Assembly (NCBI GenBank): GCA_001664505.1
Contig: CP011806.1
Span: forward strand, 4,106,177 to 4,170,176
Source: Acidobacteria bacterium Mor1
GTDB taxonomy: Bacteria; Acidobacteriota; Polarisedimenticolia; Polarisedimenticolales; Polarisedimenticolaceae
DNA: 64,000 nucleotides
Direction: 5' to 3'
Part shown: piece by piece, positions 37,891 through 45,521 of the stretch
How the letters are laid out: every line of letters begins with the position of its first letter
Numbering within the stretch: position 1 is the stretch's first letter
Notes under the pieces: model-generated
Told to the model about the DNA's origin: nothing
The model's input: the letters and a program-made list of their open reading frames with translations, nothing else
Databases searched by the model: none
Translations under genes and position numbers: made by a program

Positions 37891-38238
37891 GGGGGCGATT
37901 TGGATTCGACGGGAAGGCAGAGGCGTAGGAAGCACGTCGAGGTCCACTCCTCGTTAATCCGTGGAACAAAAGTACTTGGCAACAACCAGTACGCCCTCGC
38001 TGCTTAAGTAGCGACGTTTCCCGAGTTGCCCGCCCGAGGCGGCTCGTGGAAGCGCCGATAATTCGGGCTAGCTCAACGGTGATGCCTGTAACCGACGAGC
38101 GAAATTTACAGGCTGGCCTTCCGATTGTTTGCCGCTCAGTGGTCGGAATGGCGAGATAAAAAGCCGAGCAGGCTAAGCGTGTAGAAACTTACGTACGAAC
38201 CTTTTCGGACGCGGGTTCGATTCCCGCCGCCTCCACCA
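37891..38238 (+). ncRNA. ssrA: tmRNA (SsrA), one-piece
   Basis: The 5' end GGGGGCGATTTGGATTCGACGGG and the 3' T-arm/acceptor GGGTTCGATTCCCGCCGCCTCCACCA are diagnostic of tmRNA. The two ends can pair as the acceptor stem, and the CCA is encoded. The tag frame reads GNNQYALAA followed by TAA (37978-38007), a normal degradation tag ending in ALAA with a Gly resume codon. The molecule rescues stalled ribosomes. Its length, about 348 bases, is normal. An acquired island abuts its 3' end. Confidence 0.95.
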
Positions 38239-38366
38239 TTCGACTCGCGCATAGGGCGCTCGCTCATGGCAGGCTACTCTTCGCGAGTCGAATGGTGCCC
38301 TGAGCGAGCAACGCGAGCCGAAGGGCTCTCTCAGGTCTCGCACCGCCTCCACACGGTGCTCCCATG
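38236..38366. repeat. Left copy of palindromic island-boundary repeat
   Basis: This ~130-base element begins inside the tmRNA CCA end and stops at the ATG of a truncated GIY-YIG gene. It contains a perfect 14-bp inverted repeat (38236-38249 with 38282-38295) and the palindrome-like stretch 'ccctgagcgagc...gagccgaaggg'. An imperfect second copy lies at 45396-45521, in the same orientation. The pair brackets the whole accessory island. Confidence 0.75.
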
Positions 38367-38412
38367 TACCACGTGTACATTCTGCGCTGTTCTGACGGCT
38401 CCCTCTACGTCG
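38364..38412 (+). pseudogene. GIY-YIG nuclease gene remnant (N-terminus only)
   Basis: The ATG at 38364 opens MYHVYILRCSDGSLYV, the unmistakable start of a YhbQ/UPF0213-type GIY-YIG protein. The match stops just before the expected Gly (the ..YVG.. of the motif), and the following residues are unrelated. It is therefore a truncated gene of about 16 codons. The boundary repeat runs directly into its ATG, so the repeat may be the leader of a mobile GIY-YIG cassette. Confidence 0.7.
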
Positions 38413-38634
38413 CTCCGAGAACTCGAGCAGCTGGTGGCTGGCGGGCCGATGGACGGCATCATCGAGTGCTTCATTGGGTTTGCCGCCGACTGTCAAGATC
38501 AGGTTCTTGTCGCCGTGACAGAGTGGCTGATCGAACAGAGCAACGCCTCGACGGTCAGGAGAGGACTCCGGAAGGTCTCGATCCGTGCTGTGCCGCCACT
38601 GATTCTTGAGCTTCTGAGAACGCATACGGCTTGA
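38410..38634 (+). CDS. Possible fragment of a hypothetical protein
   Basis: After the GIY-YIG break a different frame stays open to TGA at 38634. It has protein-like content (LVAGGPMDGIIECFIGFAADCQDQVLVAVTEWLIEQSNASTVRRGLRKVSIR) but no start codon with a ribosome site. It is best read as the C-terminal remnant of an unknown gene joined to the repeat by recombination. Confidence 0.3.
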   Translation, partial: SLRELEQLVAGGPMDGIIECFIGFAADCQDQVLVAVTEWLIEQSNASTVRRGLRKVSIRAVPPLILELLRTHTA

Positions 38635-38644
38635 GTGGGTACCG

Positions 38645-38830
38645 ATGACGAATACGCTACGCTGGGAGTTTGTTGGCGGCTCGACGGTCGAGCCGTTGCA
38701 GCAGATCTTGGACGGTCCACACTTGAATGCACGGCCTCAGGACACCGAATCCTGGGGCCCATTCCAGGCAACGGCCCGACTGGGGTATCGTAGGGTGGCA
38801 TTAAAGAGCGACGACCTGTCGATGACGTGA
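38645..38830 (+). CDS. Small hypothetical protein, 61 residues
   Basis: This ATG-started frame encodes MTNTLRWEFVGGSTVEPLQQILDG and ends at 38830. It lies 10 bases after the preceding fragment. No recognisable domain, and the ribosome site is weak. It may be a fragment inside the degraded left edge of the island. Confidence 0.25.
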   Translation: MTNTLRWEFVGGSTVEPLQQILDGPHLNARPQDTESWGPFQATARLGYRRVALKSDDLSMT

Positions 38831-38887
38831 AATACCTCGACCTTCTCCCCAACTGCTCGGTTCAGCGAGCCTCCACAAGAGCTACGG

Positions 38888-40705
38888 TCAGCCTCCGTCT
38901 GTGCCGAGGGACCACCACCAGGACTCTAACTCCCTTATCCCCTTAGGTAGCGAGCCTAGGACTGTTCCTTCGACCACGAGTGAGAGAGCCAGCCGTGCTC
39001 TGGATACACCCACGTACAACTCGGTTTCCTGGAGACTTCCCCTGCAGAAGAGCATCGTGGCGTCCGCCTCTAGGCCTTTGAACTCGGACACCTCATAAAC
39101 CGGGATGGCGCCTTCACTCCTAGCTTGGTCATGTCGAGCGAAGTTGAATGTCTGGGTGGGCGGCAGATCTTTGGCCCAATCCCGTGTGAAGAACTCTATT
39201 ATCTCAAGTCCCCATATTCGCGCCTGTTTGTAGGGTCGATTAAGTTGGAGCTCTCCGCCTTGAAGAGTCCACGCCCAAGTTCCGTAGAGATGTGGGTTTT
39301 TCTCAAACTGCCGACGCCGGTTCCTATCTAGCCGGATGGAGCGCGCAACGTTGTTGACGAGAGCGAGGTCATCTCGCGTGGGCGTGACCTCCCCACTCAG
39401 CTCTGCAAGACGATCAAAAACTCCCTTCTCTCCCCCAGAAGGTAGAGTGACGCCCGTCCGATCATACAGCCGAAGTGCTTTCTCAAACTCACGCCGAGTT
39501 GCGGTCCTCCACTCAGGGGCGTCTGTAGGAGGTAGAGAGCCCCGAGCAAAGGGAGAACTCTCGTACGTCATGGGGCTCGTGAGCAGCACGACCGGCGTCT
39601 CGAGGTTGCAGGCTTGGATTAATTGCCTCAAGCCCTTGCGAATAGCTGCGGTCTCGCCCCCAACATCGTAGGCCCATGCGAACACAGCCCCCAACTCGGC
39701 TAGGTCCGATTCAGGCGCCGGCGTATTCTGCCGGAGTCTCCTGACTACGTCGTAGATTCGCCCCGCATTTCTGCAGTTCCGAGAAAGATCGATCAAAGGC
39801 TGTTTCACCGGATAGTCTGAGCGGTACGGAAGAAGGGCTTGCTGGTCGTCGCAGAAGATGTAGAGGACGCCCGCACCGGGATTGGCCAACGCTGCATCAA
39901 CGACCGCCCACCACTCGCTGCGAAAGTCTTGCCCCTCGTCAACTACGACCGCATCGTAGTACGCGTCGCACTCAGTGAGCAGATCAAACGCCCGGTCCAA
40001 GTCTTGCTGCCTGGGCTCATGGAAATGCGACCAGGCTTCGTTAGTGTCGTCCTGCCGTGCTGCCGTAATGGCTTTCACCCAAGCAGCGAAGGAGATTGCG
40101 TGAACGCCCGAGCCCATTGTAAGGGCCCGCAAGTGTTCCGCAAGGAGCGGGCTGTGGCACAAGAACAGAGTCGTCAAGCCAGCGTTTGAAAGCCGAATCG
40201 CTTTCTCCGCGGCAACAAGCGTCTTTCCCGATCCTGCACATCCTGTTACTCGAACGCGACTCTGCCCGCGAAGCTGTAGAATCACCCGAAACTGGTCTCT
40301 CGTGAGCCGTTCGACACCGCGCCGTAGAGTAGCCATGTGGTTCTTCACCGACGCTGCGAACAGATCGTCTTCACGTTCATAGATCGGCTTGGCTATGGAG
40401 GTTGGTTTGGCGGGAGGATGCTGCGCTAGTTCACGATACAGATGATCCCGGTATGCCGTGAGCTCGCCCGTAGTGAGGCCCTTGCTCTGGCTCGTCACCG
40501 AGTCGTACTGATCGTGGTGCTCAAGGCAAAGATAAACGAGATTGTCGAGTGATGATTTCGTAGCATCTCGATCAATATGCGCGATCTGGCCCTGGCGCTT
40601 GATGCCCATGTCGAAATTTAGCCCAAAGCAGAGTGCGCACCTACGTCTGGAGGTGAGAAGGATCTGAGTTTCAGTTGCTTGGCTTACTCGTTTTCGTGCC
40701 GCCAC
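38888..40705 (-). CDS. HNH nuclease-SF1 (UvrD-like) helicase fusion
   Basis: This 605-residue protein starts at GTG 40705 with AGGAG seven bases upstream. Residues 1-95 form an HNH module: zinc ligands C23-x2-C26 and C60-x2-H63, plus catalytic-type H43, N55 and H64. Residues 130-600 form an SF1 helicase core: Walker A GCAGSGKT (155-162), Walker B VVVDEGQDF (253-261), motif III YIFCDDQQ (282-289), EFKGLEAD and VGVSRARLAL (motif VI). Nuclease-helicase fusions of this kind are frequent in anti-phage systems. The gene is the last of the leftward island genes. A 21-bp G tract and a ribosome-site hairpin precede it. No known named system is recognised. Confidence 0.88.
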   Translation of the reverse strand: MAARKRVSQATETQILLTSRRRCALCFGLNFDMGIKRQGQIAHIDRDATKSSLDNLVYLCLEHHDQYDSVTSQSKGLTTGELTAYRDHLYRELAQHPPAKPTSIAKPIYEREDDLFAASVKNHMATLRRGVERLTRDQFRVILQLRGQSRVRVTGCAGSGKTLVAAEKAIRLSNAGLTTLFLCHSPLLAEHLRALTMGSGVHAISFAAWVKAITAARQDDTNEAWSHFHEPRQQDLDRAFDLLTECDAYYDAVVVDEGQDFRSEWWAVVDAALANPGAGVLYIFCDDQQALLPYRSDYPVKQPLIDLSRNCRNAGRIYDVVRRLRQNTPAPESDLAELGAVFAWAYDVGGETAAIRKGLRQLIQACNLETPVVLLTSPMTYESSPFARGSLPPTDAPEWRTATRREFEKALRLYDRTGVTLPSGGEKGVFDRLAELSGEVTPTRDDLALVNNVARSIRLDRNRRRQFEKNPHLYGTWAWTLQGGELQLNRPYKQARIWGLEIIEFFTRDWAKDLPPTQTFNFARHDQARSEGAIPVYEVSEFKGLEADATMLFCRGSLQETELYVGVSRARLALSLVVEGTVLGSLPKGIRELESWWWSLGTDGG

Positions 40706-40728
40706 CTGGGACTCCTGTTGTCCCGACT
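40706..40728 (-). promoter_or_regulatory. Ribosome-site hairpin before the HNH-helicase start
   Basis: Read on the minus strand, GGGAC-AACAGGA-GTCCC places the AGGAG ribosome site in the loop and 3' stem edge of a small hairpin just before the GTG. It could limit translation, and it lies next to the G tract. Confidence 0.35.
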
Positions 40729-40749
40729 CCCCCCCCCCCCCCCCCCCCC
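40729..40749. repeat. 21-base homopolymer (C on plus, G on minus strand)
   Basis: An uninterrupted run of 21 C lies 24-44 bases upstream of the HNH-helicase start codon, between that gene and the TM-TIR-like gene. Runs this long slip readily and are the hallmark of phase-variable promoters or leaders. The exact length could also be affected by sequencing or assembly error. Confidence 0.9.
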
Positions 40750-40828
40750 GAAGGAGATTCAGGCACTAATCATTGGGAGGCAGATTGCCTGACCGAGGCG
40801 GAGTTCACTGAAGAAGAGTCCGGTCCTG

Positions 40829-42496
40829 CTAGTCCAAGCTTGCTGTGGTTGTTCGCAAGCCGGGAAGGTCCCGCTCTAGCCACTCTGCTATCCGTTGGTT
40901 CACGGTTGTCTCGAGATTGTACCCGTCGATATCCTTGTACAATCGCCCGCAAACGTCGGTTGGGAGGCGCGGCATCCGTTTGTCTTTGAGCAGCAAACAA
41001 GGCTTGCCGAGGCTCACCATATAGCCAAGTTCGAGAGATACATTGGGGTTAAATTCGCGCTCTTCGAACTCCTCAAAAACGCAAATGCCTATGTCGCAAG
41101 CATGCATGTAGACACGAATATTGGCCCACAAATCTTCGTGCCAATTCTGGTCTTTCGCAAAATGCGCGGTGTAGCCATGTTCCGCGCAACTCCGACGAAT
41201 CGATTGATCGAGTCGACGGAACACCTCAGTGTCTCGATACCGAACCATGATGAACACGTTGTTCGAACCAAGATGAGACCGCCGAAAAGCGTCTAGCTGT
41301 CTAGCGATTTCCGGGGCAGAATGGGGTTCCGGTCCGGACTCCTCTGCCCCTTGGTGAGCAGATGCAATTCGAACTACGCCCACGTTGGCGACTAGGACGA
41401 ATCCACACACCGCCACGAGCAGGAGCATCGTAAAGAGGACTATGTAGACAATAGCCATCTTGCTTTGAAGCATGGGATCGATGGCAATCACGTGATAGCG
41501 ACTGTCAACGAAATACAACACCAGGTAATAGACGAGGCATCCCGCGACGAATCCTGAGGTAGCTACTACTACCGATCGGTAGCCTCTTCGGATCGGGCCA
41601 GCGGCACGATCCTCCGGCGGGCGCAGAGCGATGTTTCGCTTGAGCAACCGCAGGCGCGCAACCAAAGGACTGCTGATGCCGAATCCGAGTGGGAGCACTA
41701 GGATCGCGATGGCTCCTGGACCGATCCAAAGCCACCATTGGCTTGGCTTCGTGATCATCCAATGAGCAGCAGCTGGTAGGTACACGATTGCGAAAGTCGC
41801 GAGCTGACCGGGAAGCGCCCGGGGTCCTAGGATAGATCGAACGTCGGTCGCAGCCGCGTGGGCCCTTGGAAGGAATACGGCGAGCACAAAGCAAGCGGCA
41901 GCGGCCGTGAGTATCTTGTCTGGTATCTCGATATAGAGTTTCGACTCAACGGCTGTCAGGTAGAGGTCACGCGATGATTCTAGGACCGTTTGCCGACCTG
42001 CAATCGCATCAAAAAGCCGCTGGTTGAGCTCTTGCAGTGCATGCTGAGGTTCATCTAGAACGAAGAAGGTAACAACCGGTGCAATGGCAATCGACACGAA
42101 GGCGCCCAGTAGGCCCGCGGCGGTGCAAAAACCGACGATCTCCTTTATCGAGCATCCGGCAGCCAGCGTGCGTGGCAGCAAGAATCTTCCAAGGTATCCC
42201 CAGCCTATTGCGAGGAATGCGTTCAACACAGCGTAGTAGTTGTACGTGTGGTCGAACCCCGGTGTCGCGCTCGCGAGCAAAGTTGATGAGATGCCTACCG
42301 TCGCAGCCCACCAAGGACCGAGAGCGAAAGCTGCAAGGGCTGTACCTATTGTGTCGAGAAAAATAATCCCCTTGGTCAAGGGGTAGAGAGTAGTACCACC
42401 GAGGTTCAGCATTATCGCGATTGCGCTGAGTGCAATCAGATCGCTCGCCCGGAACTCGGTGGAGTCTCGCAGCCAAGAAGTGAATCCCGGCCTCAT
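40829..42496 (-). CDS. Multi-pass membrane protein with C-terminal TIR/deoxyribosyltransferase-like domain
   Basis: This protein has 555 residues. Residues 1-390 contain about eight hydrophobic helices. The first part (SAIAIMLNLGGTTLYPLTKGIIFLDTIGTALAAFALGPWWAATVG) resembles substrate-binding S components of ECF transporters. Residues 412-530 are soluble, with the Rossmann-like pattern NNVFIMVRYRD ... DIGICVFEE ... NPNVSLELGYMVSLGKPCLLLKDK. The NPNVxxE motif (E489) is the conserved acidic site of TIR-like and nucleoside deoxyribosyltransferase-like enzymes that cleave N-glycosidic bonds. Its ATG overlaps the cytidine deaminase stop as ATGA. A membrane-anchored nucleotide-cleaving effector is plausible. 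It is A+T-richer than the chromosome. Confidence 0.82.
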   Translation of the reverse strand: MRPGFTSWLRDSTEFRASDLIALSAIAIMLNLGGTTLYPLTKGIIFLDTIGTALAAFALGPWWAATVGISSTLLASATPGFDHTYNYYAVLNAFLAIGWGYLGRFLLPRTLAAGCSIKEIVGFCTAAGLLGAFVSIAIAPVVTFFVLDEPQHALQELNQRLFDAIAGRQTVLESSRDLYLTAVESKLYIEIPDKILTAAAACFVLAVFLPRAHAAATDVRSILGPRALPGQLATFAIVYLPAAAHWMITKPSQWWLWIGPGAIAILVLPLGFGISSPLVARLRLLKRNIALRPPEDRAAGPIRRGYRSVVVATSGFVAGCLVYYLVLYFVDSRYHVIAIDPMLQSKMAIVYIVLFTMLLLVAVCGFVLVANVGVVRIASAHQGAEESGPEPHSAPEIARQLDAFRRSHLGSNNVFIMVRYRDTEVFRRLDQSIRRSCAEHGYTAHFAKDQNWHEDLWANIRVYMHACDIGICVFEEFEEREFNPNVSLELGYMVSLGKPCLLLKDKRMPRLPTDVCGRLYKDIDGYNLETTVNQRIAEWLERDLPGLRTTTASLD

Positions 42497-42927
42497 GCGT
42501 CGGTACGGTCGTCCTTGATCAAGCTGGGAGAGAATGACTCTGGGAGAAGTTCATCCAATTGCATGATCTTCCTACTACCGTCCAGGTTTGCCATGACCAC
42601 TGAGCACGACGGCCCAAACTCCACCATTACTTGACGACAGAACCCGCATGGCGGACAAGGGGTCGTTGTGTTCGCGACGATCGCGACTGCCAGCAGACGC
42701 CTCGAGCCCTCAGATACGGCCTTGAACAACGCAACTCGTTCAGCGCAGACCGTCCCGCCGAGCGAGGCGTTCTCAACATTGCAGCCCGAGTAGACTCCCT
42801 TCTCGGTTAGGACGGAGGCGCCAACGGCGAAGCTGGAATACGGTGCGTAGGCGCTCTTTCGTGCCTTCGTCGCCAGCTCAATCAGTTCGTCGATTCTCAA
42901 CTTACTAGTTGCAGGTTTCGACGGCAC
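42493..42927 (-). CDS. Cytidine deaminase
   Basis: This protein has 144 residues. I chose GTG 42927 because GGGAGG precedes it by eight bases and the length then matches free cytidine deaminases; the frame is open further upstream without homology. The active site is complete: TVCAERVAL (zinc ligand C61, proton-shuttle E63) and PCPPCGFCRQV (C94, C97). It deaminates cytidine or deoxycytidine to uridine or deoxyuridine. Unlike a housekeeping cdd, it sits in an acquired island and is translationally coupled by a 4-base overlap to the TM-TIR-like gene. A joint role in nucleotide depletion or alarm signalling is inferred. Confidence 0.9.
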   Translation of the reverse strand: MPSKPATSKLRIDELIELATKARKSAYAPYSSFAVGASVLTEKGVYSGCNVENASLGGTVCAERVALFKAVSEGSRRLLAVAIVANTTTPCPPCGFCRQVMVEFGPSCSVVMANLDGSRKIMQLDELLPESFSPSLIKDDRTDA

Positions 42928-43353
42928 AAAAGGGGCCTCCCAGATCCGCGCCCAAGAACAACTCCTGAGGAGAGCCGCGGACTCTCTACACAACACCGAA
43001 ATCCAACTGAAGGACTCCCGTACTCCAAAGTTGATTGTGTTCTTAACATGACAGCCGCGAAAGTGCAAGGGGTGACGCGGGTCAGCAATAGCGGGCTCAC
43101 TGCAACGTGCTGCAAGCGACAGCACTCGATTGTCAACCCCGGGAACGCCCCACGAACACCGAAACGAACGACATGACGCGTACGGTTGGTAGCACCGATC
43201 TCGCGCTTGGATTCGTCCCCTGATCAAACCCAGTCTGTCTGCGGGGTTGGGGCGCAGGCCTGTGTTCTGTCCGGCTATGCCTGGCAGAGGCGTCGAATCG
43301 CTTCGCCGTCCCTGCTGCTAGAGATGAAAGTGCATCATCGGCGCCTTGCTCGA
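42928..43353. other. Intergenic region between methyltransferase and cytidine deaminase genes
   Basis: This is 426 bases. It must contain the leftward promoter of the deaminase-TIR pair, but I see no clear -35/-10. A small GAGAG/CTCTC hairpin lies at 42970-42986. A minus-strand open frame (43133-43402) overlaps the methyltransferase end and has no protein-like pattern, so I do not call it. No integron attC structure is evident. Confidence 0.4.
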
Positions 43354-44115
43354 CTAGCCAAGCTTCTGCCAGCGCAAGGCGATGAACCGAGGGAACTCCC
43401 ATGGATTAGGGTACATTGATTGAATATCAGCGGCAGGCAGTGGCTCCAGCGCGGCTTGAAGTGCAAAGCCTACTTTGGAGAGAGCCTCCAAATACCTGCG
43501 CAGCGGTCGGTGTATGTGCGTCGTTTGAATGTCCGTGCGACATCGAGAGATCGCGAACGGGGCTTCAACAAAGATCTCAGCATCGTACTGGAACCATGGC
43601 TCTCGCTCATACCCGGAGTACCTTGGCCAGAAGCATGGGTGTGTTAGCACTGCGATGAATTGGGAGCCCCCTGCGAGCAGTTGTGCAAGGCGGTTTGCAA
43701 GAGCGTCTAGATCGGGCGCCGTCATTAGACTCATGACCGCGACGGCTGCGGTAGCGGTTTCGCACCGGAACTGCGGCCCGAGTTCCTCTAGCGACGATTC
43801 GATGAATCGGACATTGACGGCCTCGCGACAGACCCTACGCGCAACAGCGATACTCTCATGGGAAGGGTCAATTGCGACTACTTGCTGGGCCGCATCGGCC
43901 AACTCTTTGGTGAAGTCTCCCGTTCCGCAACCGATGTCGAGAACAACCCTGTTGTTTGCACCCGCGAGTAGTTTTCGCACCGATGGCACCACCACATGCG
44001 TGAAGCTAAGGTCCTCTCCACTCGCGATTTGGCGGTGACGCTCAGCAGCCAATTCATCCCATTGTTTCGCGAGGTAGGAGTGAGTCTTTGAGGAAACGGC
44101 CCGAATCTGCCCCAT
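43354..44115 (-). CDS. Class I SAM-dependent methyltransferase
   Basis: This protein has 253 residues. The ATG at 44115 has AAGGGCTGAG upstream and starts two bases after the stop of the preceding gene. Motif I is VVLDIGCGTGDF (about residues 57-68), followed by VVAIDPSHESIAVA (acidic ribose-binding end of strand 2) and AVAVMSLMTAPDLDALANRLAQLL. It resembles small-molecule or ubiquinone/biotin-type methyltransferases rather than DNA methylases: no NPPF/DPPY motif. Its substrate is unknown. It is paired with a 2TM protein gene in the island. Confidence 0.88.
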   Translation of the reverse strand: MGQIRAVSSKTHSYLAKQWDELAAERHRQIASGEDLSFTHVVVPSVRKLLAGANNRVVLDIGCGTGDFTKELADAAQQVVAIDPSHESIAVARRVCREAVNVRFIESSLEELGPQFRCETATAAVAVMSLMTAPDLDALANRLAQLLAGGSQFIAVLTHPCFWPRYSGYEREPWFQYDAEIFVEAPFAISRCRTDIQTTHIHRPLRRYLEALSKVGFALQAALEPLPAADIQSMYPNPWEFPRFIALRWQKLG

Positions 44116-44117
44116 GC

Positions 44118-44756
44118 TCAGCCCTTGGCTTTGCTGATCGAGCGTACGAGATTCATTAGATCGTTCGCTAGATGGAACGCCGGATGCTGGCCTGAGCAAA
44201 ACTCGTCAACTGCGTGCAGATCACCCTGGGTCCTACCAACCGCGACACGTGAGCCATCCCTCCCAAACGAGACGATGGTGAACCGAGAATCGGGGGCCTC
44301 AAGGTTGCCAGCTCCGTACGCGCAGACTTCAGCGCCTGCTGCCGCTAGTTCCTCGGCTAGAGCATTTGTCTCCGGCATACACACGATGAGTTCGTTTCGA
44401 CCAGCCTTCTCTGCAAGGAGAGCGCGGGTCTCGTCGTTCTGTGCCCAGCTCAGGTCCCTAGACCAAATTGCGACTCTACCCCCGTGTTGAATCCACTTGT
44501 GCATGTAATCCCGGATCCCGCGCTCATCGTCTCTTTTGAACACTCGTCGTTCCCGATTCTCGTTGACTTCGCGGATCACCAGAATGCCTAGGAAAACAAC
44601 CGCAATCGTCAATAGAGTGACGGCCCACCATGGCAACTCGTTGGACGGAGGTAGAAAGCAAAACAGGAGACCAGCAAGAGACGCGAAAGATGCGAAAAGA
44701 GCGAGGAGCTTCTTGATCAGGCTTCCCCACAACTTCCACCAGACAGGAACGCGCAT
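44118..44756 (-). CDS. Two-transmembrane protein with soluble PLD/TrmB-C-like domain
   Basis: This protein has 212 residues. The ATG at 44756 has AGAGGA upstream. Two TM helices come first (LLALFASFASLAGLLFCFL; WWAVTLLTIAVVFLGILVI), then a ~140-residue soluble domain with GGRVAIWSRDLSW, RNELIVCMPETNALAEELAAAGAEVCAYG and SRFTIVSFGRDGSRVAVGR. That alternation resembles phospholipase D-fold or TrmB C-terminal sensor domains, but no HKD catalytic motif is present. 2TM-plus-sensor architectures are common in bacterial conflict systems. It is the first gene of the leftward island set. Confidence 0.75.
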   Translation of the reverse strand: MRVPVWWKLWGSLIKKLLALFASFASLAGLLFCFLPPSNELPWWAVTLLTIAVVFLGILVIREVNENRERRVFKRDDERGIRDYMHKWIQHGGRVAIWSRDLSWAQNDETRALLAEKAGRNELIVCMPETNALAEELAAAGAEVCAYGAGNLEAPDSRFTIVSFGRDGSRVAVGRTQGDLHAVDEFCSGQHPAFHLANDLMNLVRSISKAKG

Positions 44757-44962
44757 GGTAGGTCCTCTTGTGGGCCGCAGATAGTGGGTGGTCGGACCAG
44801 GTAGCAGACAGCTCTCCCGATCCATCAGGACTTCCGAGCGGCTCAGCTCAGGTGAAGGTAGCTCATTGCCGCTTGAAATCCCAGCCCCCTTGGATGGAGT
44901 GCGAAATGACAACGGGTCTGTGTTCGTGCCTGTCAGTCGGAGGCCTATTTGTGGAGTTCCCT

Positions 44963-45379
44963 GATGATGCGAGGCTACCCGACCTTGATCGTGGACGACA
45001 ATGGCCCCGAACTTGCGAGCAAGGCGCCGAACAAATGGGCGTAACTGCGCGACGTCGAGCGCACTTCATCGAATCGGGCACGCCAAACCCAAGTGCCTTG
45101 ATCGAGTCTATCCACGGCCGCTTCCGCGACGAGTCCCTCAACGAACACTGGTTTCGGGACCTGGCGGATGCCCAGGAGAAGATCGGGGCGTGGCGCCACG
45201 ACTACAACCACCGTAGGGGCAGAAAGGGCGCCGGCTGCAAGACACCGGCCGAGGTGGCCTCGGCGGCGTGGTCGGCGGAACTCCAGTCGCGTCCGGCACC
45301 TTACCGTCCGCCGACCGATGGCCCGGAGCTCATGCTGGCTCAGCAGGATAGGGACAATCGGACACTACAGGTGGACTGA
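44963..45379 (+). pseudogene. IS3-family transposase (OrfB) remnant
   Basis: The conserved integrase-core pieces survive in two frames. RGYPTLIVDDNGPELASKAPNKWA (from 44969) is followed by a stop. The next frame resumes with HFIESGTPNPSALIESIHGRFRDESLNEHWFRDLADAQEKIGAWRHDYNHRRG and TPAEVASAAW (to 45379). These are the DNG, ESF-like and LNEHxF segments of IS3/IS407-type OrfB. The N-terminus, orfA and terminal repeats are missing and the frame is broken. It marks the right edge of the island. Confidence 0.8.
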
Positions 45380-45395
45380 CTTGGGGAAGGTCGCC

Positions 45396-45521
45396 ACCAT
45401 CGACTCGCACCCAAGGCGCTCATGGCGAAGCTACTCTTCGCGACTCGAATGGTGCCCTGAGCGAGCAAAGCGAGCCGAAGGGCTCTCCCAGGTCTCGCAT
45501 CGCTCCAGACGGTGCCCCATG
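45396..45521. repeat. Right copy of palindromic island-boundary repeat
   Basis: It is homologous to 38236-38366 along its length, starting with CCATCGACTCGC and including 'ctcttcgcgactcgaatgg' and 'ccctgagcgagc...cgagccgaaggg', and it likewise ends at an ATG (45519-45521). The sequence after that ATG is unrelated to GIY-YIG. The copy starts with CCACCAT, as at the tmRNA 3' end. Confidence 0.75.

Follow-up and report, generated by a model that had tools for sequence, protein, structure and literature searches.

Leader G tracts of the length described here are classical substrates of slipped-strand variation, and phase variation by repeat tracts has been studied mainly in pathogens. Changes in the length of a pglX G tract switch Pgl phage defence in Streptomyces coelicolor (PMC4365076), and the length of promoter poly-G tracts controls the tpr genes of Treponema as well as porA and opc of Neisseria (PMC7864442). 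In E. coli, an RNA G-quadruplex in the 5' untranslated region (5'UTR) changes translation and can raise it (PMC11087576). The locus analysed here shares with pglX a mononucleotide G tract on a phage-defence gene (here a probable one), but the pglX tract consists of 8 Gs inside the open reading frame (ORF) and acts by frameshifting, whereas the present one comprises 21 Gs and lies outside the ORF, in the leader. With the poly-G/C tracts of Treponema tpr and tp0126 and of Neisseria porA and opc it has in common a position upstream of the start codon, from which tract length affects expression level in those bacteria (PMC7864442). Those tracts are shorter and sit in mapped promoters of surface proteins, whereas this one is longer, lies in no mapped promoter and belongs to a nuclease-helicase gene.

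The tract is an uninterrupted run of 21 Cs on the forward strand (40729 to 40749; G on the coding, reverse strand), 24 to 44 nucleotides upstream of the GTG start at 40705 and separated from it by 23 nucleotides, exactly where the earlier note had placed it. The remark in that note that the window (the whole 64,000-nucleotide stretch of DNA analysed) holds no other homopolymer of similar size was borne out as well, the next longest being 7. In the 5.985-Mb (5,985,000-base) single-contig genome, a G14 pattern search matched this locus alone, and a G9 search returned 8 further G/C runs of at least 9, the longest of them 10. With expected counts computed from window composition and genome-wide counts taken from pattern searches, 9 G/C runs of at least 9 stand against 129 (Markov) to 291 (independent bases) expected, i.e., a 14- to 32-fold depletion. 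By chance, 5.985 Mb would hold a run of at least 21 about 3e-4 times under independent bases or 4e-5 times under a first-order Markov model. Avoidance of long G runs in this genome makes the 21-mer an extreme outlier. Both its purity, together with a length far above the genome background, and its placement in the leader or promoter region are traits of simple-sequence-repeat phase-variable loci. That this is the sole long G/C run in a genome avoiding such runs argues for a slippage-prone tract. Our leading explanation, to which we assign a probability of roughly 0.45, is a genuine poly-G leader tract that is prone to slippage and probably tunes expression of a defence-type HNH-SF1-helicase whose gene belongs to a small tmRNA-locus island.

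Misassembly or sequencing error, whether as a miscounted tract or as sequences wrongly joined at poly-G, appears quite unlikely. Poly-G artefacts are frequent in assemblies of the phylum. G runs of at least 15 occur in 80 of 396 Acidobacteriota genomes; many of these tracts lie at contig ends or within G/C junk, where they are probably artefacts, and one (L026) adjoins an Illumina P7 adapter-like sequence. Assignment of these genomes to Acidobacteriota follows from L014, one of their loci, which appears to be identical to the Aminicenantes sequence L168, each yielding a 456-amino-acid protein and having an A8 at +11. The present tract, however, sits in the interior of one 5.985-Mb contig, its flanks are single-copy in the genome on both sides, the surrounding genes form one plausible co-directional row, and the assembly contains no other such tract. 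The unique flanks, the gene order and the single contig thus argue for a genuine tract; the exact count of 21, which is known from one genome, may be off by a few. Poly-C/G runs at contig-end loci of public genomes (L019, L024, L026 and L043) probably represent assembly artefacts. No second copies or alleles of the leader were found in viral contigs, and the flank was rejected as a repeated element because the genome holds no repeat copies of it. Its resemblance to the G-tract element TGATCAGTGGGCGCTTAGATTC-Gn that recurs in genus g89 was not significant (p about 0.10 to 0.20). In that genus, an intergenic element of the form TGATCAG(T/C)GGGCGCTTAGATTC/TTCC, followed directly by G18-27 and then TA, recurs in four copies in two genomes (L061, L063, L068 and L070).

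The leader reads AGTCGGGACAACAGGAGTCCCAG-GTG, with a Shine-Dalgarno (SD) sequence AGGAG at 40716 to 40712. A hairpin at the ribosome site had been proposed earlier; the inverted repeat GGGAC-AACAGGA-GTCCC is indeed present around the SD (40724 to 40708, reverse strand), and its GGGAC and GTCCC arms can pair around AACAGGA, but 3% of shuffled versions of the 23-nucleotide leader and 8% of 23-mers drawn at random from the window contain comparable 5-bp hairpins, so its occurrence does not exceed chance. Folding of the leader with 0 to 27 Gs gave SD accessibilities of 0.41 to 0.8, constant at 0.79 to 0.80 for 14 to 27 Gs, and a G-quadruplex joined the predicted minimum from 12 Gs upward. The hairpin was rejected as a switch on account of its chance-level frequency and of this independence of length. 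Since accessibility is flat over 14 to 27 Gs, no simple on/off masking is predicted, and any effect would operate via the quadruplex or at the DNA level. No sigma-70-like promoter was found near the tract. The remaining intergenic leader (40750 to 40828, reverse strand), which is single-copy in the genome, contains neither a long ORF nor a sigma-70-like site. Promoter spacing of the porA type was rejected because no sigma-70-like pair lies nearby and 21 nucleotides exceed a normal spacer. A search for known RNA families in the vicinity retrieved tmRNA alone.

The position of the tract outside the ORF means that a change in its length cannot frameshift the protein. In-ORF frameshifting of the HNH-helicase gene was accordingly rejected, as frames are closed around the tract and the HNH module begins at the downstream GTG; no open frame runs from the upstream gene through the tract into the helicase. 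A translational frame switch, in which an upstream GTG (GTGCCTGAATCTCCTTC...) would be fused in frame via the tract to the helicase at some lengths, is highly improbable. Inspection of the leader yields such a fusion at n = 20 or 23 (n = 2 mod 3), but the upstream GTG lacks a preceding SD, the HNH family starts at the downstream start, which has a good SD, and at n = 21 a TAG upstream of the tract closes the helicase frame.

The gene behind the leader (38888 to 40705, reverse strand, GTG start) is an intact ORF of 605 codons. Its designation as an HNH-helicase gene proved correct: the 605-amino-acid product joins an HNH nuclease module (CxxC...H...N...CxxHH) to an SF1/UvrD-like helicase (GCAGSGKT, DEGQD and VGVSRA), and the motifs of both are intact. 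Alignment with three relatives delimits the HNH module to residues 1 to 96, with C23, C26, H43, N55, C60, H63 and H64 invariant, which is the pattern of HNH family A1; Pfam gave no match on this module. The SF1/UvrD-like part extends from about residue 116 and matches the helicase part of PADLOC NERD-helicases and helicase proteins of the phylum. It has the SF1 core of the NERD-UvrD subgroup (PADLOC C3a187 / RTasNERD-Hel), to whose helicase half it is homologous, with 36 to 37% identity to L010-L012. Unlike those proteins, it carries the HNH module in place of the NERD nuclease: an N-terminal NERD domain was not found, the profile match starting only at residue 116 to 129. A further difference from RTasNERD-Hel is that the neighbouring genes that were scanned include no recognisable reverse transcriptase. 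The other 395 phylum genomes searched contain no full-length homologue. Relatives of the HNH module number 69 (67 bacterial and archaeal ones and a further two from the phylum), and their C-terminal parts are different or absent; as none of the 69 bears a NERD-type SF1 helicase, the fusion looks unusual. Sequence searches returned no relatives of solved structure. The protein is probably a virus-defence-type enzyme.

The HNH-helicase gene resides in a presumed integrated island of about 7.2 kb (38233 to 45503) behind the tmRNA gene (37891 to 38238, forward strand), at whose 3' end it starts. The island is bounded by direct repeats of about 110 bp (38233-38346 and 45394-45503, 87% identical), of which the genome holds just two full-length copies and which include only the last few tmRNA bases; such repeats bounding an insert at the tmRNA 3' end are what a tmRNA-site island would show. 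The helicase gene is preceded on its strand by a gene encoding an ECF-S-like membrane domain and a nucleoside 2-deoxyribosyltransferase-like domain (40829 to 42496, reverse strand) and, further upstream, by co-directional genes for a cytidine deaminase, a SAM methyltransferase and a 264-amino-acid membrane protein (42493 to 44912, reverse strand). The ECF-S-like/deoxyribosyltransferase-like fusion gene overlaps the cytidine deaminase gene (42493 to 43227), an odd nucleotide-related pair. Among the island ORFs scanned (small ORFs in part), no intact integrase was recognised, but only an IS407/IS3 transposase remnant (44912 to 45379). Two family members (L117 and L118) share the gene order of the pre-tmRNA side (exbD-tonB-TPR-PTS IIA), and in L116 and L117 the tmRNA is followed by additional copies of its 3' end. 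This synteny and these extra copies fit a recurrent insertion site at the tmRNA locus, a comparison that covers the pre-tmRNA side only.

Comparable G tracts were sought around relatives of the gene and in related genomes. None precedes any of the 69 HNH relatives, where the maximum is a G9 at -163; the helicase loci L010-L015 have no G/C run of at least 8, and the five genomes of the family that were searched have no G run of at least 15. The idea of a tract conserved among relatives was rejected on these grounds: by sequence comparison, the gene family does not share it. This absence is compatible with neutral expansion, i.e., a real, length-variable tract produced by slippage in noncoding island DNA with no selected effect on the gene, which we regard as nearly as likely as a tuning role. 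Other acidobacteria provide parallels in the form of solitary internal and unique tracts of at least 15, intergenic and often adjoining ordinary genes (e.g., L046, L047, L049 and L056). An island with a broken IS element and no recognised intact integrase, and a leader with neither a predicted promoter nor a predicted folding switch, also suit a neutral origin. Against it stands the location of the tract, 24 nucleotides ahead of a defence-type gene whose genome carries 14- to 32-fold fewer G runs of at least 9 than expected; so close to a ribosome site, a G tract would probably have some effect.

Expression tuning by a slippage-prone tract is suggested by the end of the tract 23 nucleotides before a GTG with a good SD and by the intact HNH and helicase motifs of the gene. 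It also draws on precedents, namely, the g89 methyltransferase tracts described below, pglX, the Treponema and Neisseria tracts and 5'UTR quadruplexes. Slipped-strand mispairing, as in known systems, would alter tract length and create a population of mixed lengths. Tract length could then change gene output in a graded manner rather than by frameshifting, by way of a structure that the G tract forms either adjacent to the ribosome site or within the promoter-leader region, namely, a G-quadruplex in DNA or RNA, which folding predicts once about 12 Gs are present. The outcome would be random cell-to-cell variation in the amount of nuclease-helicase. A more specific version, a leader-type phase switch in which tract length sets, through a G-quadruplex by the ribosome site, the dose of the HNH-SF1-helicase in a graded, non-frameshifting way, is doubtful. 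Several observations speak against tuning: the tract is missing from the 69 HNH relatives and, at 15 Gs or more, from the five family genomes; no sigma-70-like promoter is near, and SD accessibility stays at 0.79 to 0.80 for 14 to 27 Gs; a lone tract is unlike a genome that routinely switches genes by such tracts; and the solitary long tracts of other phylum members also adjoin ordinary genes. On/off or level switching, as the earlier note had proposed, stands in part. A defence-type gene, a slippage-type tract and same-phylum precedents favour it, but the lack of a nearby promoter-like site, the unchanged SD accessibility and the missing conservation weigh against it, and graded modulation is more plausible than on/off switching.

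The notion that long G tracts occur in phase-variable restriction genes found support within the same phylum. In genus g89, N6_N4_Mtase (type III Mod-like) genes belonging to two groups of orthologues have in-ORF G/C tracts at matching sites (L069, L070, L187-L189; L203, L206, L207, L210-L213). Tract lengths are 19 and 31 in the first group, with 10 in a third species, and 9, 13, 17, 18 and 27 in the second. In the latter, n = 17 keeps a frame of about 926 codons joined to a C-terminal frame of about 212 codons, and 9, 13, 18 and 27 break it. By their sequences, these tracts look like classical frame-switching phase-variable restriction in an environmental phylum, and interspecies comparison shows that Acidobacteriota keep long G tracts, whose lengths differ from species to species. 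In L062, also of genus g89, a ResIII-type helicase gene follows the methyltransferase gene.

Type III Mod phasevarions, including the acidobacterial ones (L069/L070/L189; L203-L213), resemble the present locus in having G/C tracts (9 to 31) on restriction-type genes in the same phylum; they differ in switching by in-ORF frameshift and in encoding a methyltransferase, unlike the leader tract of the HNH-helicase. If control of a defence nuclease by a leader tract were verified in this environmental phylum, it would, together with the frame-switching methyltransferases of relatives, indicate that poly-G tracts randomly tune phage defence more widely than assumed. Repeat-tract phase variation is a kind of system already known, and the present locus is a further candidate.
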